Shown here: positions 10,946-20,559 of the stretch, piece after piece
Numbering within the stretch: the first letter of the stretch is position 1
Layout of the letters: the number at the start of each line of letters is the position of its first letter
DNA from: a virus
Virus record (IMG/VR): IMGVR_UViG_3300040801_003223
Coordinates: 1 to 24,129 of that record
DNA: 24,129 bases
Reading direction: 5' to 3' (one strand)
Program-made: the position numbers and the translations under genes
The notes under the pieces: generated by a model
The model's input: the letters and a program-made list of their open reading frames with translations, nothing else
The model's database searches: none
What the model was told of the DNA's origin: nothing

Positions 10946-11364
10946 CCAACATGCTGCGTTTTACTCGCGGAGAGTTAAAAAGACGAGCGACTCAACGAAA
11001 TCTGTTAAAAGAGATCGTGTTCATGTCAGATCGTCCAGCCGATGCTCGTGATATTGAAATTATTACATTAAAACAACGATTACGAGATCAAGCGATGTCT
11101 GAAGCCTGGGACATAACACCCGACGCAACTTCTGTCGACCAAACCATTCAGACATTATTAAACACAAAATTTTCATCTGCAAAAGAATTTGTAGAAATCG
11201 AAAACCATCACATCACTGTTGGCATCAACACGCCAATAGTAGATGATGCGGCGATTGATAGAGCGTTGATGCTATTAATACAAGTTGACGATATCACAAA
11301 AACATCATACATTGAATTTGGGGATGCAATAAAAATATATGGAACTCGATATAAGCCAATCTGA
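10942..11364 (+). CDS. Hypothetical protein (140 residues)
   Basis: This protein is not recognised. It begins with a basic helix (FTRGELKRRATQRNLLKEIV) and has no cysteines or transmembrane segment. Translation probably couples to the upstream gene through the ATGA overlap, because no good Shine-Dalgarno sequence is present. Its last 26 bases overlap the nucleotidyltransferase gene in another frame, a long overlap even for a phage. Confidence 0.55.
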   Translation: MTNMLRFTRGELKRRATQRNLLKEIVFMSDRPADARDIEIITLKQRLRDQAMSEAWDITPDATSVDQTIQTLLNTKFSSAKEFVEIENHHITVGINTPIVDDAAIDRALMLLIQVDDITKTSYIEFGDAIKIYGTRYKPI

Positions 11365-11989
11365 AGACATGATTCGTGTCTTATCGCTATTACATCAAGC
11401 AGGCCACACAACGGCAATTATTGCAGGTGGTGCTATTCGCGACAGATTCCACGGGGTGGAAGTTTCTGACATAGATGTGTATATACAGTACACTCCAAAC
11501 ACTCTGTCGCCATTTCCACGACAGAAGTATTCTGGGCCAGAATGGTTAACCTACTGGACTTCGGTGTTGAAACTCCAGACAACAGGGTACCGAGCTTTGG
11601 CTGACGCGGTTGACTACTACTACTCCACGTATGCAGACGAAGAAGATTCTAACGCCAATCGAGTGGTTGCTGTGTGGAACGTGTGGAAAAATTATATCAA
11701 ATACCAAATAATTCTTACATCCCTCTCTCCAATCGACTACGTTGAACGACATTTTGACTTTGGTATTTGCAAAGCGTATTGTGATGGTACTAAAGTAAGG
11801 CTAACACGCGATTTCATCACCGACTCACAGAAGAAATCTATAACGTTGGTGGGTAAGAATTTAAGCCGCACCCAATGCATTTACGCTGTAGAAGATCACC
11901 TACCAAGAATCCAGGCCAAGTACCCTAACCACCAATTTAAGGTTGCGCCTTGGAATGAGGGTATTTTAGCTGCCGAAAAACAAATGTAG
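11339..11989 (+). CDS. Nucleotidyltransferase-fold protein
   Basis: This 216-residue protein has the signature of the DNA polymerase beta-type nucleotidyltransferase superfamily near its N-terminus. IIAGGAIRDRFHG has the Gly-Gly pair at 30-31 and R34-D35, and SDIDVYI supplies the two metal-binding aspartates D44 and D46. The spacing matches tRNA nucleotidyltransferase and poly(A) polymerase heads. The rest lacks the RNA-binding domains of those enzymes, so the substrate is unknown. Similar stand-alone proteins occur in T4-like phages. The gene starts inside the upstream gene without a clear ribosome site and ends in TAG. Confidence 0.65.
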   Translation: MELDISQSEDMIRVLSLLHQAGHTTAIIAGGAIRDRFHGVEVSDIDVYIQYTPNTLSPFPRQKYSGPEWLTYWTSVLKLQTTGYRALADAVDYYYSTYADEEDSNANRVVAVWNVWKNYIKYQIILTSLSPIDYVERHFDFGICKAYCDGTKVRLTRDFITDSQKKSITLVGKNLSRTQCIYAVEDHLPRIQAKYPNHQFKVAPWNEGILAAEKQM

Positions 11990-12042: not shown

Positions 12043-12648
12043 ATGGCACTAGTAGCAATCAGCGGATCGCAAGGGTCTGGCAAATCAACAATTATCAGCA
12101 AAATTCAGGAGCTGGGGTTTAATATCATAGAACGAAAAACCTCTCGGTCAATACTGTCTGAATGGGGCGTTTCGCTCCAACAGGTCAATAATGACCCAAA
12201 TCTGACTCTCAAGTTCCAAGAAGAGATCACTCGCCGGAAATTCAACGACGAACGGGCTGCAATTCTTGATACGCAGCGGTTGTATTTCACTGAACGCACG
12301 CATGCTGACCTATTCACCTACGCTTTGGTTTCTCTCGGAAAGGATAACCATCACAGCGAATGGTTGGATCGGTATTACAGAACGTGCATGGAATATAACC
12401 AGTGGTATGCTAGTGTATACTATCTCCGCGCCGGTCACTTTAATATAGAACACGACGGAACGCGTGGATCTAATATGCATTACTCACGCATGGTCGATTT
12501 GACTATGCTTGACATAACACAACAAATGGTGCATACTTCTAAATTGACTGTGATCGAAACACCCGATCTTATTCAACGGGTAAACATTATTACGATGCAA
12601 TCGCGGGGTTTGGCGCCGCTATCAGATTCAGACTATCAAGGAGAATAA
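12043..12648 (+). CDS. P-loop NTPase/kinase (AAA_28-like)
   Basis: This 201-residue protein opens with ALVAISGSQGSGKSTI, a textbook Walker A (G8 to T16). EERTH-like FTERTHADLFTYAL at about residues 85-100 resembles the segment after the catalytic Asp/Glu in NadR-type and deoxynucleoside kinase-like ATPases. SRMVDLTMLDI and an Arg-rich tail follow. The length fits a single kinase domain. A nucleotide or nucleoside kinase role is likely from the fold, but the substrate cannot be read. A perfect TATAAT at 12020-12025 lies upstream without a credible -35 box. Confidence 0.6.
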   Translation: MALVAISGSQGSGKSTIISKIQELGFNIIERKTSRSILSEWGVSLQQVNNDPNLTLKFQEEITRRKFNDERAAILDTQRLYFTERTHADLFTYALVSLGKDNHHSEWLDRYYRTCMEYNQWYASVYYLRAGHFNIEHDGTRGSNMHYSRMVDLTMLDITQQMVHTSKLTVIETPDLIQRVNIITMQSRGLAPLSDSDYQGE

Positions 12649-12654
12649 TAACAC

Positions 12655-13746
12655 ATGTCCGGACATTGCAAAGACGAAAAGTGTGGTTGTGGGGATCATC
12701 AAGCCCCAACCGGTGAGTACAATTACACCAATTACGACGAAAAAATGCCTGAGCTAATTTTCAGGTATGACAAAGATTTTTATCCGTTGGATGAAACATT
12801 ACCTGACCCTCAAGTTGACCCAATCATTCCAGGGAAACGTGTTCCGCTGGATAAAGTTGGAATTGCACCAGTTGATCTACCGATCAAAGTATATCGTCGC
12901 GATGGTGGAGTGCAAGAATTACAAGCACAGGCGTCCTTGTATTGTTCGTTAGATGATAGCAATGCAAAAGGATTAAACCTCAGCCGGTTGTATCTTCTAA
13001 TGCACGAAACGATTAAAGACCATCTATCGATTGATGGTATTAAAGGTGCTTTGAAGGAAATGGCGGAAAAACAAGGTGCTCGCAAGGCATTTTGTAAGTT
13101 GCGGTTCAAATACCCATGGACACAGAAGGCGTTACGCTCTCGTCAACCTCTTGATGAATACGAGATGGAAAATGGTTTGTATGAAAAACTAGGTAACGGC
13201 GAAAGGATCAGTCTAAAAAAACTCGAGGGACACATCGCATATAATGTTGTTCTCGAGGGTCGGTATGAGATGCTCGACTATGGCGATGGGCCATATCCAA
13301 CGTATCAGTTCTTCCTTACTGTCGATTACGTGTACAGTTCAACATGTCCATGTAGTTTTGAACTGGCACATAACGCTACTGAATTACGCAACGCAGCAGC
13401 GAATGCTCATAGTCAACGTAGCATCATGACAACAACCGTTCAGTTTGATCCTAACCAAATGGTGTGGATTGAAGACCTCGTCGAATTACACCGACAACAT
13501 ATTCCAACAGAGGTTCAGGTTGTTGTTAAGCGCCGTGATGAACAGGCTTTTGCTGAACTGAACGGTTCTAACCTTCTGTTCAGTGAGGATGCAGTGCGAC
13601 TAATGTACGCTGCACTGGATGAGTGGTATGACCTGGGACGAATTGCTAACTTTACAATCAGCACAGCACACCAAGAATCGCTGCACCCCTGGGATGCAAT
13701 AGCTGTGGTAAGTAAGCATTCAGACTGCGCCCCAAGCAGACGATAA
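12655..13746 (+). CDS. folE2: GTP cyclohydrolase FolE2 (type IB)
   Basis: This 363-residue protein carries FolE2 signatures: STCPCSFEL (the metal and catalytic cysteine region, C231 and C233), AHSQRS about 20 residues later, and ESLHPWDAIAVV near the C-terminus. FolE2 converts GTP to dihydroneopterin triphosphate, the first step of folate and of 7-deazaguanine (preQ0, queuosine) synthesis. It replaces the zinc enzyme FolE when zinc is short, and can use other metals. An extra Cys/His-rich head (GHCKDEKCGCGDH) is present. It lies 6 bases after the kinase gene, with GGAG before the ATG. The QueD-like and DpdA-like genes further on support a deazaguanine role. Confidence 0.85.
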   Translation: MSGHCKDEKCGCGDHQAPTGEYNYTNYDEKMPELIFRYDKDFYPLDETLPDPQVDPIIPGKRVPLDKVGIAPVDLPIKVYRRDGGVQELQAQASLYCSLDDSNAKGLNLSRLYLLMHETIKDHLSIDGIKGALKEMAEKQGARKAFCKLRFKYPWTQKALRSRQPLDEYEMENGLYEKLGNGERISLKKLEGHIAYNVVLEGRYEMLDYGDGPYPTYQFFLTVDYVYSSTCPCSFELAHNATELRNAAANAHSQRSIMTTTVQFDPNQMVWIEDLVELHRQHIPTEVQVVVKRRDEQAFAELNGSNLLFSEDAVRLMYAALDEWYDLGRIANFTISTAHQESLHPWDAIAVVSKHSDCAPSRR

Positions 13747-14442: not shown

Positions 14443-16248
14443 GTGTTAAACAGGATGCGAGAAATTGGTCGCTGTATTAGCCAATGCTTAAACAGCGCGA
14501 CAAAAGAATACGACCCCCACCTCGAAGGCAACTTCCGAGCGCTATATAAATCCGTTCCGGTCGGCTTCGCTATAACATCAGCGGATACAGGAGTGTTCCT
14601 TCGTGTTAACCCAGCATTCTGCGAAATCGTCGGATACGCAGAAGAAGAGCTGCTGCGCATGACTTACTGGGATCTTACCCCTGCTTCATATAGGCCCGAA
14701 GAGTTTGAACAAATAGAACATCTCAGAAGGGAAGGCGGATACGGTCCATACGAAAAGGAATATATCTGTAAAAATGGACAAAACGTTCCTGTGTTGCTAA
14801 GCGGCGTGGCGCTAACGAGCACGTCGGGAAAAGAAATTGTTTGGTCAGTCATTCAAGACATCTCAAAACGAAAAGAAGCAGAGGCAGCAGTATACCGACT
14901 AGCATATTATGATTCGTTGACAACATTACCTAACCGAACTTACTTCGGTGAAGCGTCAATTAACATGCTAAGGCGAGCACAAAAAAACCACACGCAGTGC
15001 GCGATGATGGTTATTGATATAGACGGGTTTAAACGAATCAATGATTCGTTGGGACATACGTTTGGCGACAAGTTGTTGTTTGCGATTGCTCATCGGTTAG
15101 AGATGTTTATCAAAAATCGTTGCGACCATGACTTAGACACGGAACACTTAGCGTGTAGCACCGACGCACCGTGTGAATGTTTTTGCTCTCGTCTTGGTGG
15201 TGATGAATTCGCATTAATGTTTGAACGTGTTGTTGGAACAGCTGAAGCTCATAAAATTGGAGATGAATTGCTAAACGAGTTCGATAGTGTATTTGATATT
15301 GAAGGCCGACAAATCGATATTTCGGTTAGTATTGGGATAAGCATGTACCCAAAAGACGGCGAAGACATATCAACAATGTTACGGTCTGCTGACTTAGCGT
15401 TGTATGCTGCAAAATCAGAAGGCAAAAACCGATATGTGTTTCACCACGACTCGATGACAACTCGTGTGTCGGAATATGTTCATTACGAAAATGCATTAAG
15501 ATGGTTTATTGAAACAGAGCAATTCGAAATGTTTTTCCAGCCTATATTCAGTATAGACCGCGAGCGAATAGAAATGGTTGAAACGTTATTCAGAGGCAAC
15601 CCTGATCAATTTGGGCCGTTGAACCTAGATAAGTTGTTTGGTGTAGCCGAAGAATCTGGTTTGATTATCGCTCTAGGTGCAAAGATTTTCAAAAAAGCGT
15701 GCGAATATTGTGTCCAATGTGTCAAGCTAGGTCCAACAAGAAAGGTTTCTATTAACATTTCGCCACGACAACTTGAACAAGACGATTTTGTTGAAATGTA
15801 TTCTACAATCATGGAAGAAACTGGGATTAATCCATCGAACGTTGCTTTAGAGATCACTGAATCAGCGTTAATGGAGGATTTCAATACGTCAAACGAAAAA
15901 CTGTTGGCGTTGCAACAAAAAGGTGTAACTGTTGTCATTGATGATTTTGGTAAAGGATACTCATCGATGATGTACCTTAAACGGTTACCTGCTCGTAAGT
16001 TAAAAATAGATATGAGCTTTACGCGCGACGTTGTAACTGATCGGACAACATACGAAATCGTTAAAGGCATAACGTTGTTAGCTCATGCAATAGACATGCG
16101 TGTCTGTGCTGAGGGCGTTGAAACGGAAGAACAACTCACTGCTCTAAAGCAGTTGGGGGTTGATGAGATACAAGGTTACTTAATCGCCCGGCCAATGCCA
16201 TTTGACCATTTTAGAACATTTGTTACGGAGTATCTCGAAGATGAGTGA
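14443..16248 (+). CDS. PAS-GGDEF-EAL cyclic-di-GMP protein
   Basis: This 601-residue cytoplasmic protein has a PAS domain (about 30-145), GGDEF (about 150-335) and EAL (about 345-595). It has no transmembrane segment. The cyclase half keeps [23 protein letters not shown] and an intact LGGDEF (252-256); the RxxD inhibitory site is absent. A cysteine-rich insert (residues about 226-248; Cys 227, 238, 244, 246 and 248) sits before the GGDEF loop. The phosphodiesterase half has ETL (380-382) for EAL but keeps the Glu, then [24 protein letters not shown] (D500, D501), LKID, AEGVET and IQGYL, so all usual metal and catalytic residues are present. It could make or degrade cyclic-di-GMP. The start is GTG 14443, 8 bases after GGGAGAG. 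The end overlaps erpA by 8 bases. Confidence 0.9.
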
Positions 16249-16576
16249 TATTAAAGTTTCAGAAGCAGTATATGATAAACTTGCAGAATTGCTAATACAA
16301 GAAAACGACGAAAGTATTCTGGGGTTGCGAATTTATATCCAGGGCGGCGGATGTTCTGGATTCCAATATGGGTTTCAGTTCGCTGATACTATAAACGAAG
16401 ACGATACCATTATTGAAAGCGCCGAAGGATTGAAAATCGTCGTTGATCCAATGAGCATGATGTACTTAGAAGGTGCAGAAATCGATTACGTAAAAACGCT
16501 TGCGGGGGAACAATTCTCCATCCGGAACCCTAATGCAACTACTACTTGTGGTTGCGGTAGCAGCTTCGGTGCGTAG
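16241..16576 (+). CDS. erpA: A-type iron-sulfur carrier ErpA
   Basis: This 111-residue protein is a full-length A-type carrier. [11 protein letters not shown] holds the first ligand cysteine (C38), and [10 protein letters not shown] holds the C-terminal pair (C103, C105). [17 protein letters not shown] is the usual central segment. [10 protein letters not shown] and the length fit ErpA better than IscA. The protein receives Fe-S clusters from the IscU scaffold and passes them to apo-enzymes. ATG 16241 inside the end of the GGDEF-EAL gene, with GGAG 10 bases upstream, is the start; upstream in-frame codons lack homology. The stop is TAG. Confidence 0.9.
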
Positions 16577-16635: not shown

Positions 16636-16680
16636 CCTTAGCAAAGTCCTAAGAAAAAGAGTTTGCATGTGGGAGCACCA

Positions 16681-17286
16681 ATGGCAATATGTGAATTTTG
16701 TGGACAAGAATTTGACCCAAGGCCTCGGTTTCAGCGGTTTTGTTCAACACCATGTAAAAATCCGCGGAATAGACCAGGACATTCCGCCTGGAATAAGGGA
16801 CTGACCAAGGAGGATCCTAGGGTTCAAAAGAATATATCGAGCCCGAACAGAGTCATGAAATGCTCTGGTTGGAATAAGGGTAATATCTCAGAGCGTGCTA
16901 AGCAGGTGGCTAAACAGTCATCTGTGAGAATGAGGAAGGATAATCCCAACAAGAATGGGTATTTCAACAAACAACGGAAAGTTTTTCAGCGATTGGATGG
17001 ATGGGCAGAGTATGTCAGACAAGTTCGTAAATTCACTATGCGCACAAAACGACGAATACAGAAGCGATCTAATATCCAATTTGGCAAGCATAAAAACGAT
17101 TGGCAAATGGACCACGTTATTCCTATCGAGCAGGGGTTTGAATTAAACATACCGCCATACATCATTGGAAGCACAATGAATTGTCAGGTATTGAAACAGC
17201 ACTTAAACAGAAAAAAGTGGAATAAGAAGCAGCCCAGTGAAATGGTTGAGATGATTATAGAAAGTTTCATGGGAGAATATAAATGA
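16681..17286 (+). CDS. HNH homing-type endonuclease with NUMOD3 motifs
   Basis: This 201-residue protein has three parts. An N-terminal zinc-finger-like segment has C4, C7, C21 and C25 (CEFCGQEF, then RFCSTPC). Two NUMOD3-like DNA-binding motifs centre on WNKG at about 37-40 and 64-67. The C-terminal nuclease has MDHVIPIEQGF with D144-H145, then N167 and N176 (HNH fold). Free-standing phage genes of this type are homing endonucleases that cut a related genome lacking the gene and drive their own spread, usually next to their target. It overlaps the ATG of iscU by four bases and provides the iscU ribosome site. The in-frame TTG at 16663 is passed over; ATG 16681 has GGGAG 5 bases upstream. Confidence 0.8.
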   Translation: MAICEFCGQEFDPRPRFQRFCSTPCKNPRNRPGHSAWNKGLTKEDPRVQKNISSPNRVMKCSGWNKGNISERAKQVAKQSSVRMRKDNPNKNGYFNKQRKVFQRLDGWAEYVRQVRKFTMRTKRRIQKRSNIQFGKHKNDWQMDHVIPIEQGFELNIPPYIIGSTMNCQVLKQHLNRKKWNKKQPSEMVEMIIESFMGEYK

Positions 17287-17672
17287 GTTACAGTGATGCT
17301 GTTATTGACCATTATGAGAATCCTCGTAATGTCGGAACGTTAGATAAGGAGGACCCGCACGTTGGGACCGGCATGGTCGGCGCCCCAGCGTGCGGTTAGC
17401 TAGGTGACGTAATGCGCCTTCAAATACAGGTTGATGACAATGGAACGATCATCGACGCTAAGTTCAAGACTTATGGTTGCGGGTCTGCTATTGCATCGTC
17501 AAGCCTACTTACAGAGTGGGTCAAAGGACGAACCTTAGAAGAAGCGCAACAAATCAAGAACACAGAGATAGCTGAAGAGTTGGCTTTGCCACCAGTAAAA
17601 ATACATTGCTCTGTTTTAGCAGAAGATGCAATCAAGGCAGCTATTGTTGACCTAAAGTCAAAGGAGAAGTAA
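17283..17672 (+). CDS. iscU: Iron-sulfur scaffold IscU, interrupted by an in-frame TAG within a 9-base insertion
   Basis: This gene reads as IscU from end to end. Codons 1-38 give MSYSDAVIDHYENPRN..., ending GMVGAPACG with the active cysteine C37. TAG CTA GGT follows (17397-17405), then DVMRLQI and the rest, with TYGCGSAIASSS and PPVKIHCS holding the other two ligand cysteines. IscU normally has D directly after ACG, so 9 bases are extra. Without them the product is 126 residues (E. coli IscU is 128). IscU assembles 2Fe-2S clusters from cysteine sulfur and iron. Decay looks unlikely because frame and all other residues are intact. Candidate outcomes are ribosome hopping from GGT to GGT, readthrough adding three residues, reinitiation at ATG 17412, true inactivation or a sequence error. 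Confidence 0.85.
17355..17395 (+). promoter_or_regulatory. 12-bp hairpin ending at the codon before the iscU stop
   Basis: CCGCACGTTGGG (17355-17366) pairs with CCCAGCGTGCGG (17384-17395), giving eleven Watson-Crick pairs and one G-U. The 17-base loop can add a short inner stem (ACC with GGT). The right arm ends on the first two bases of GGT 17394-17396, the glycine codon directly before TAG. The stretch uses GC-rich codons (CCG, GGG, ACC, GCC, GCG) unlike the rest of the window. Confidence 0.8.
17394..17405 (+). other. Putative short bypass element: GGT-TAG-CTA-GGT in the IscU active site
   Basis: A 9-base addition lies between the codons for G38 and D39 of IscU. It is bounded by two identical GGT codons and contains an immediate UAG. 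Frame +1 meets TAG at 17401 and frame +2 meets TGA at 17405, so every forward frame is closed within about 14 bases and frameshifting cannot rescue the protein. A peptidyl-tRNA hop from the first GGT to the second restores the conserved ACGDVM exactly. AGGTGA (17402-17407) could also act as a ribosome site for ATG 17412. The mechanism is inferred; the sequence facts are direct. Confidence 0.6.
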
Positions 17673-19377: not shown

Positions 19378-19758
19378 ATGCTTGGTTCCATCCAACAACG
19401 AACAGTAGAAGTGTTCTGTACTCTTCAACTAGAAGGGATTCATAATTGGCCCGGATGTCCATTTCCGGAAGTTGATTATCTTCGCGACCCCCATCGTCAC
19501 GTCTTTCATATCAAAGCACACAAAATTGTCACTCATAACGACCGCGATGTTGAATTTATTATTCTAAAGCACGCAGTTCAACAACATCTACTCGACCAGT
19601 ACTGGGATGAGAAGTATAAGTGTTTGATGTTTGGAGCACGGTCATGTGAGATGATAGCTGAAGAACTAATTTCAAAATTTGACTTATCTAAATGTGAAGT
19701 TAGTGAAGATGGCGAAAACGGAGCAATCGTAACAGTAACTATGGTAGAGGATATCTAA
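19378..19758 (+). CDS. QueD/PTPS-like protein
   Basis: This 126-residue protein shows a degenerate 6-pyruvoyl-tetrahydropterin synthase/QueD layout. GIHNW (H22) sits in the place of AAHRL. PHRHVFHIK (H39, H41) sits in the place of LHGHSFMV. DVEFIILK corresponds to the DFxxLK segment, SCEMIAEEL to PTSExxAxW, and CEVSEDGENGA to VxVxETxxxG. The three histidines would bind zinc. The catalytic cysteine before HGH is absent, so activity may differ. QueD makes 6-carboxytetrahydropterin on the way to preQ0. FolE2 earlier and a DpdA-like gene directly after it support this reading; without them the assignment would be weak. Confidence 0.45.
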   Translation: MLGSIQQRTVEVFCTLQLEGIHNWPGCPFPEVDYLRDPHRHVFHIKAHKIVTHNDRDVEFIILKHAVQQHLLDQYWDEKYKCLMFGARSCEMIAEELISKFDLSKCEVSEDGENGAIVTVTMVEDI

Positions 19759-20559
19759 ATGTTAAAAAGGAATGCCAACCCACAATTCTGCATCATTACA
19801 CCAACCGCATATCTTGATCGTTATGCATCGCAGTCGTCAATGCATCTCGTATTAGCTCATCTCGTCGATATGGACGAAAAGTATGCATCATTTTATGCAA
19901 CACGAGACGAATTTAAAATTATGGACAATGGTGCATTTGAGTTAGGAGAGAGTTACGCCCCTGACCGTTTAATCGAGTTGGGCCGAAAATGTCATGCGCA
20001 AGCAATCGTTCTTCCTGATTATCCGTTCCAGCCTGCGCAAAAAACAATCGACGCTGCAGACCTTGCAGCAGATGTTCGTGCAGCAGGGTTTTACACTATG
20101 TTCGTTCCTCAATCAAAAGTTGGCGATCTTGAAGATTGGATCCGATCATATGAATGGGCCGCTGCAAGCGAGACGGTTGATATTATAGGTATGTCGATCC
20201 TTGGCATTCCTAACGCTCTACCTCATATCCCTCGTGCATATGCTCGTGTGGTTATGACACAGTTGTTGATCGACCGTGGAATCTTCAACTTCAACAAGTA
20301 TCATCATTACCTCGGATTGAACGCTGGTCCTAACCTTGAGATTCCGCCTCTGATTGCAATGAACGCGTTGGATAGCTGTGACAGTTCCAATCCAGTATGG
20401 GCAGGAATTTGCGGACAAATGTATAGCTTAATGGCAGATAGTTTCTTAATGACTCGAAAGATCGATAAACATGTCGACTTCAATTACCCAATGACAAAAA
20501 GCGAGTTTGTTCATTCCGCTATACAAACGAATATTGACATGACGTTAGGATTGTTGTAA
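19759..20559 (+). CDS. DpdA/TGT-like transglycosylase
   Basis: This 266-residue protein resembles tRNA-guanine transglycosylases and their phage DpdA relatives, which swap guanine for a 7-deazaguanine. FKIMDNGAFELGE (D56) parallels the TDSGGFQ active-site segment. AQAIVLPDYPF (D87) forms a barrel strand end. ALDSCDSSNPVWAGI (D205, D208) is where the nucleophilic aspartate is expected. The barrel-like repeating strand pattern fits (IIGMSILGIP; YHHYLGL). It is shorter than bacterial Tgt (about 375), as phage DpdA proteins can be. The start follows the QueD-like stop immediately. Target (tRNA or DNA) is not decided by sequence; DNA is the better guess for a phage. Confidence 0.55.
   Translation: MLKRNANPQFCIITPTAYLDRYASQSSMHLVLAHLVDMDEKYASFYATRDEFKIMDNGAFELGESYAPDRLIELGRKCHAQAIVLPDYPFQPAQKTIDAADLAADVRAAGFYTMFVPQSKVGDLEDWIRSYEWAAASETVDIIGMSILGIPNALPHIPRAYARVVMTQLLIDRGIFNFNKYHHYLGLNAGPNLEIPPLIAMNALDSCDSSNPVWAGICGQMYSLMADSFLMTRKIDKHVDFNYPMTKSEFVHSAIQTNIDMTLGLL

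Follow-up and report, generated by a model that had tools for sequence, protein, structure and literature searches.

In 7-deazaguanine synthesis, FolE2 catalyzes the first pathway step, converting GTP to dihydroneopterin triphosphate. DpdL, reportedly predicted by Cui et al. in 2023 to be a 7-carboxy-7-deazaguanine decarboxylase, is said to occur in the company of FolE, QueD, QueE and DpdA without QueC. The enzymes FolE, QueD and QueE lead to 7-carboxy-7-deazaguanine (CDG) (PMC6884629, PMC13329287). Phage phi38:2 is described as having 7-deazaguanine-modified DNA (PMC11515303).

The window studied herein is a 24,129-nucleotide stretch of viral DNA (IMG/VR record IMGVR_UViG_3300040801_003223). 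It encodes a FolE2-type GTP cyclohydrolase and, further downstream, a QueD-like protein next to a small DpdA/TGT-type protein (Table 1). The QueD-like family, a candidate for DpdL, is likened to it by expected role and gene company rather than by sequence, and it is found here with FolE2. The pathway type is already known; what is unusual at this locus is FolE2 as the first enzyme and a QueD relative that has shed the original catalytic residues. We consider it highly probable that the locus belongs to a phage 7-deazaguanine DNA-modification pathway, a reading proposed in the initial annotation and now supported by the protein folds, by residue conservation and by the genes found alongside in many phages.

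Table 1. Features of the window and the evidence for their assignment
Feature	Coordinates	Strand	Evidence
CCA-adding/poly(A) polymerase head domain, weak match	11339-11989	+	E 0.005 (Pfam), 1e-4 (NCBIfam)
P-loop kinase-like (thymidylate-kinase-like) gene	12043-12648	+	PHROG thymidylate kinase, E 6.7e-8
FolE2-type GTP cyclohydrolase	12655-13746	+	Pfam GCHY-1, E 1.5e-57; CPCS, AHSQRS and ESLH motifs
PAS-GGDEF-EAL protein (c-di-GMP turnover)	14443-16248	+	
ErpA-type Fe-S carrier	16202-16576	+	
HNH-like gene	16663-17286	+	
iscU, interrupted frame	17284-17672	+	
iscU hairpin	about 17356-17394		
QueD-paralog T-fold protein, candidate DpdL (7-carboxy-7-deazaguanine decarboxylase)	19378-19758	+	AF2, Foldseek, VIA-align, alignment, hhalign
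Small DpdA/TGT-family transglycosylase, TIM barrel	19759-20559	+	AF2, Foldseek, VIA-align, hhalign

Structure and conservation of the gene pair

The two ORFs (126 and 266 aa) lie end to end on the same strand with no gap. Both have homologs in three related loci (L001-L003) at 55-67% protein identity, with substitutions mostly at the third codon position (0.61-0.67, versus 0.20-0.34 at positions 1 and 2); both are therefore real genes under protein constraint. The initial annotation had called them QueD-like and DpdA-like from motifs. When this call was checked against the PTPS and DpdA families, curated models did not bear it out: Pfam, NCBIfam and PADLOC profiles, including Pfam PTPS and Pfam TGT, gave no match to either ORF, and PHROGs assigned them to families of unknown function only (17812 for the QueD-like ORF, 20335 for the DpdA-like ORF). 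Profiles built from the families, together with predicted structures, recovered both folds.

The AlphaFold (AF2) model of the QueD-like protein has a pLDDT of 94.5. Its top Foldseek matches in the PDB are all QueD/PTPS proteins, the best being E. coli QueD (4ntk), with which it aligns at Z 11.8 and rmsd 2.2 over 106 residues (VIA-align). Searched against PDB sequences, a profile built from 40 homologs has PTPS proteins as its top, though weak, match (E 0.0067), and hhalign connects the family profile to the true phage QueD of the same loci (E 5.1e-7). The family shares with E. coli QueD/PTPS the T-fold, the three zinc histidines, the substrate-anchoring glutamate and a similar length. The zinc triad H22/H39/H41 is conserved in 40/40 homologs, and the anchoring glutamate, E110, is invariant as well.

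Despite this common architecture, the family departs from E. coli QueD at the catalytic residues and receives no score from PF01242 (QueD/PTPS). The initial annotation had observed that the catalytic cysteine is missing from the window protein; its position is occupied by L35, and leucine is found there throughout the 40 homologs. The Asp-His pair of QueD shows no conservation in the same alignment, whereas the true QueD proteins encoded in these loci have the catalytic cysteine and the Asp-His pair in 16 of 16 cases. With these residues lost, the paralog cannot run the QueD reaction in the known way. Assignment as QueD proper was dropped on account of the lost residues and the unmatched PF01242 model. 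The QueD-like gene often has a true QueD in its own locus, and a separate intact QueD occurs in 30 of the 48 whole records carrying the QueD-like protein or its DpdA partner, which fits the earlier suggestion that the protein may do another step.

Alternatively, a protein that lacks the known catalytic residues could be a non-catalytic, or a folate- or pterin-directed, relative that lies beside DpdA by chance. We regard this as very improbable, as the alignment of 40 homologs contains ten invariant columns, the zinc triad among them, and FolE/FolE2, QueD, QueE and TGT-type company recurs across 113 loci. Further invariant residues that are new with respect to QueD are R56, E59, S89, C90 and E91.

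The small DpdA-type protein is modeled as a TIM barrel (AF2, pLDDT 90.6). The best Foldseek match is a TGT, with DpdA 7ui4 (DNA preQ0 insertase) also among the matches, and VIA-align places the model on tRNA-guanine transglycosylase at Z 18.2 and rmsd 3.1 over 235 residues. Matching viral structure models include a phiST protein and viral queuine transferases. By hhalign, the family profile matches that of the phi38:2 transglycosylases (E 8.6e-7); a second phage family (E 1.2e-4) links it in turn to E. coli TGT (E 4.8e-9). These links arise only with family profiles as targets; single TGT or 9g sequences gave no link, and a PDB sequence-profile search returned nothing relevant. Residues D56, D87, Q118, G144 and D208 are invariant in 18/18 sequences and keep the order of the TGT active-site motifs, their equivalence being drawn from profile alignment and motif order rather than superposed coordinates. 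The Pfam TGT model PF01702 does not match the protein, but it also misses the accepted DpdA of phage 9g and is thus not a fair test for phage DpdA.

The window protein shares the TIM barrel and TGT-type catalytic motifs with the phage DpdA proteins of 9g and phi38:2 and with 7ui4, and a FolE, QueD and QueE neighbourhood with the two phage proteins. It is shorter, belongs to a separate PHROG, and its family has DNG/DNS as the first motif in place of DSGG. Phage phi38:2 encodes QueC and QueF, and a homolog of the QueD-like protein was not found there, so this phage bears on the DpdA-type protein only.

We infer from homology and context that the DpdA-type protein is DNA-specific. It is improbable that the pair instead acts in queuosine-type tRNA modification or in the host's own queuosine metabolism, even though the closest solved fold is a TGT and every enzyme of the pathway is also used in queuosine synthesis. 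The protein is a profile homolog of the transglycosylase from a phage with modified DNA, the pair sits among phage DNA metabolism genes, and QueF, QueA and QueG are not annotated in the inspected clusters. It is also small, and its family has no cysteine among the invariant columns, which implies that a TGT-type zinc site is absent.

Genomic context of the pair

The FolE2 call stands, with 195.5 bits against PF02649 (GCHY-1; Pfam cut-off 25) and 213.9 bits against the NCBIfam FolE2 model, just below its cut-off of 215. The gene lies 5.6 kb upstream of the QueD-like ORF, and the window FolE2 has no relatives among 50,697 phage records. Directly upstream of it is the kinase-like gene, an arrangement kept in L002 and L003; whether this gene is part of the deazaguanine pathway is uncertain.

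Of the 113 loci that carry the QueD-like protein, 91 have FolE or FolE2 but never both, 86 have a TGT-type protein, 67 have QueE and 58 have QueD. Among loci of at least 20 kb, these proportions are 40/41 for FolE or FolE2 and 36/41 for the TGT-type protein; the loci are often related to one another, and the counts are not independent events. The window itself holds only FolE2 and DpdA of this expected company, the remainder being seen in relatives. QueC is absent from 45 of the 48 whole records with the QueD-like protein or its DpdA partner and weak or partial in the other three, the strongest being the annotated QueC-like protein of Vibrio phage D479. Its absence from the window is therefore expected, and an incomplete pathway, considered because the window is free of QueC, was dropped as an explanation.

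A QueE profile detected QueE in 10 of the 14 records searched. In many loci the gene lies close to QueD, and in phiST, Ahp1 and some other phages it lies near the pair. Using tblastn, homologs of the pair were found adjacent or a few kb apart in Vibrio phages D479 and Bakedbeans, Rhizobium phage RHph_I1_18, Aeromonas phage Ahp1 and Cellulophaga phage phiST. The phiST row (gp036-gp042) reads QueD, QueE, FolE, MazG, QueD-like homolog (gp040), kinase and DpdA-type homolog (gp042). It resembles the window in the pair, the kinase and the lack of QueC, and differs in having FolE and MazG where the window has FolE2.

A FolE2 cassette is common to L002, L003, L039-L067 and L121. In both L002 and L003 the genes run kinase, FolE2, QueD-like, DpdA-type, dCTP deaminase and exonuclease, and L003 holds FolE2, both genes of the pair, QueE and QueD within 17 kb. 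A compact form, QueE-QueD-FolE2-DpdL-DpdA, is seen in the 5.3-kb contig L121, in that order, and in the L039-L067 group. QueE of L003 starts 1.7 kb past the exonuclease, followed by QueD, whereas the window stops 1.1 kb past its own exonuclease, so QueE could sit just outside. The window phage probably encodes QueE and QueD shortly beyond the end of its contig; in some relatives the host probably supplies them. Two large records, G001 (244 kb) and G002 (118 kb), contain FolE2, DpdL and DpdA; QueD and QueE were not found in their sequence, which makes these systems host-fed or incomplete.

Loci with the QueD-like protein fall into two classes. In 35, the partner is a small DpdA of the window type; in 68, it is a larger TGT-type and/or a glycosyltransferase-like protein, and no locus has both. 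A separate set of 25 genome contigs, counted in these totals, showed the same split. Nearly all loci with FolE2 (18/19) belong to the window's class, class II, of which phiST is an example. The class I DpdL loci (L006-L081, L098 and L103-L125) have as partners a glycosyltransferase-like gene of about 340 aa (Acidovorax ACP17 ASD50404 family), which accompanies the QueD-like gene in most of them, and the larger TGT-type protein (ASD50403, PHROG 10773). The assignment as a glycosyltransferase has weak to moderate support (best Pfam E 1.5e-5, under the cut-off), and the label is tentative because the E-x7-E motif expected of GT4 is present in just 7 of 48 proteins. One class I locus, L112, lies on a 147-kb contig of Aurantimonas sp. 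VKM B-3413, a genome without a MAG label, and carries the QueD-like, TGT-type and glycosyltransferase-like genes; it is possibly a prophage and a culturable source.

Proposed pathway

The best explanation of the whole, which we hold to be reasonably probable, is that the pair performs the final steps of a pathway that puts a 7-deazaguanine in place of guanine in phage DNA. In this pathway, the phage FolE2 would make the pterin precursor, and QueD and QueE, whether from another part of the phage genome or from the host, would convert it to CDG. In the absence of QueC the pathway stops at CDG unless this is altered, and the QueD-like protein is the sole extra conserved enzyme. This protein, which retains the zinc T-fold pocket and the glutamate predicted to hold a guanine-like ring, would strip CDG of its carboxyl group and so yield 7-deazaguanine (the DpdL step). 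We think this predicted decarboxylation somewhat better than an even prospect. The DpdA-type transglycosylase would then exchange guanine in DNA for 7-deazaguanine, and the modified base would probably hide sites from restriction enzymes. This two-step route, decarboxylation and then exchange by DpdA, is the simplest and agrees with the DpdL prediction attributed to Cui et al.

Two observations count against this explanation. Plain 7-deazaguanine, with a bare C7, does not explain the glycosyltransferase-like partner of class I, and G001 and G002 need host supply or are incomplete. The same DNA pathway might operate with the QueD-like protein altering CDG in some other way or channeling it, the base then being dCDG or a new C7-substituted deazaguanine. 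The invariant R56, E59 and C90, new features with no known role, would suit such chemistry, and the glycosyltransferase-like gene that accompanies most class I loci hints that the base in those phages bears an attachable group. We nevertheless judge it an unlikely, if serious, alternative, for the window's class has the glycosyltransferase-like gene in 0/35 loci, QueC lies outside the cassette, and QueF or an amidotransferase is not annotated in the inspected clusters, leaving few other routes from CDG evident.

A bolder and still less likely proposal is that the QueD-like family makes a non-plain deazaguanine by undescribed chemistry, with two mutually exclusive systems around it. One system would use the small DpdA, as in the window. 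The other could use the larger TGT-type protein and the glycosyltransferase-like protein, the latter decorating the base to yield a sugar-bearing deazaguanine in phage DNA.

Other features of the window

Between FolE2 and the QueD-like gene, the window carries several genes of other kinds in a phage contig. This intervening stretch, which holds the PAS-GGDEF-EAL gene, is about 4.8 kb longer than its counterpart in L003. The window has both an ErpA-type gene and iscU, and the two also co-occur in the DpdL loci L051 and L054; they may support QueE, a 4Fe-4S radical enzyme. An HNH-like gene without a Pfam match is joined by a start-stop overlap directly upstream of iscU. Its homologs also precede iscU at L174:1769-2398, where iscU is interrupted, and at L130:1713-2399, where it is intact.

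The iscU frame of the window is interrupted after a glycine codon (GGT TAG CTA GGT). A pattern scan of viral contigs found at least 119 interrupted iscU genes including that of the window, at least 72 of them distinct; those among the matches listed are in the window, L174, L190 and L206-L325. In the matches listed, a stop (TGA, TAG or TAA) directly follows the glycine codon of the PACG motif and begins a gap of 3-7 nt, after which comes a second glycine codon, with coding intact on both sides; the flanking glycine codons are identical in 28/72. In 71 of the 72 distinct genes listed, a hairpin is formed by the 48 nt 5' of the stop. Its ten-pair outer stem is paired in 71/71 of these, and at third codon positions the pairs are of several types, indicating covariation. 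Mean folding energy is -25.1 kcal/mol for the interrupted genes listed, whereas intact phage iscU averages -12.1 and synonymous recodings average -12.9; the sequences used to derive the hairpin are also those in which it was counted, and the intact genes and recodings serve as controls. Where leucine rather than methionine follows the gap, 11 of the 14 genes among the matches listed lack an in-frame ATG, GTG or TTG for at least 99 nt, which speaks against simple re-initiation.

T4 gene 60 combines a take-off codon, an adjacent stop, a stem-loop and a landing codon (PMC5009743). The interrupted iscU genes have a similar layout of codons, stop and stem-loop; T4 gene 60 has matching take-off and landing codons and a 50 nt gap (PMC5009743), in contrast to the 3-7 nt of iscU. 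By this analogy, the arrangement resembles translational bypassing of the T4 gene 60 type, or may represent a split IscU. The sole complete named phage checked, C48C1, has iscU annotated as an uninterrupted gene.

Implications

The locus extends phage deazaguanine pathways to a FolE2-based form and turns PHROGs 17812 and 20335, annotated as of unknown function, into testable enzymes. If the favored reading is right, deazaguanine DNA would occur in many uncultured phages, affecting their restriction, cloning and sequencing.
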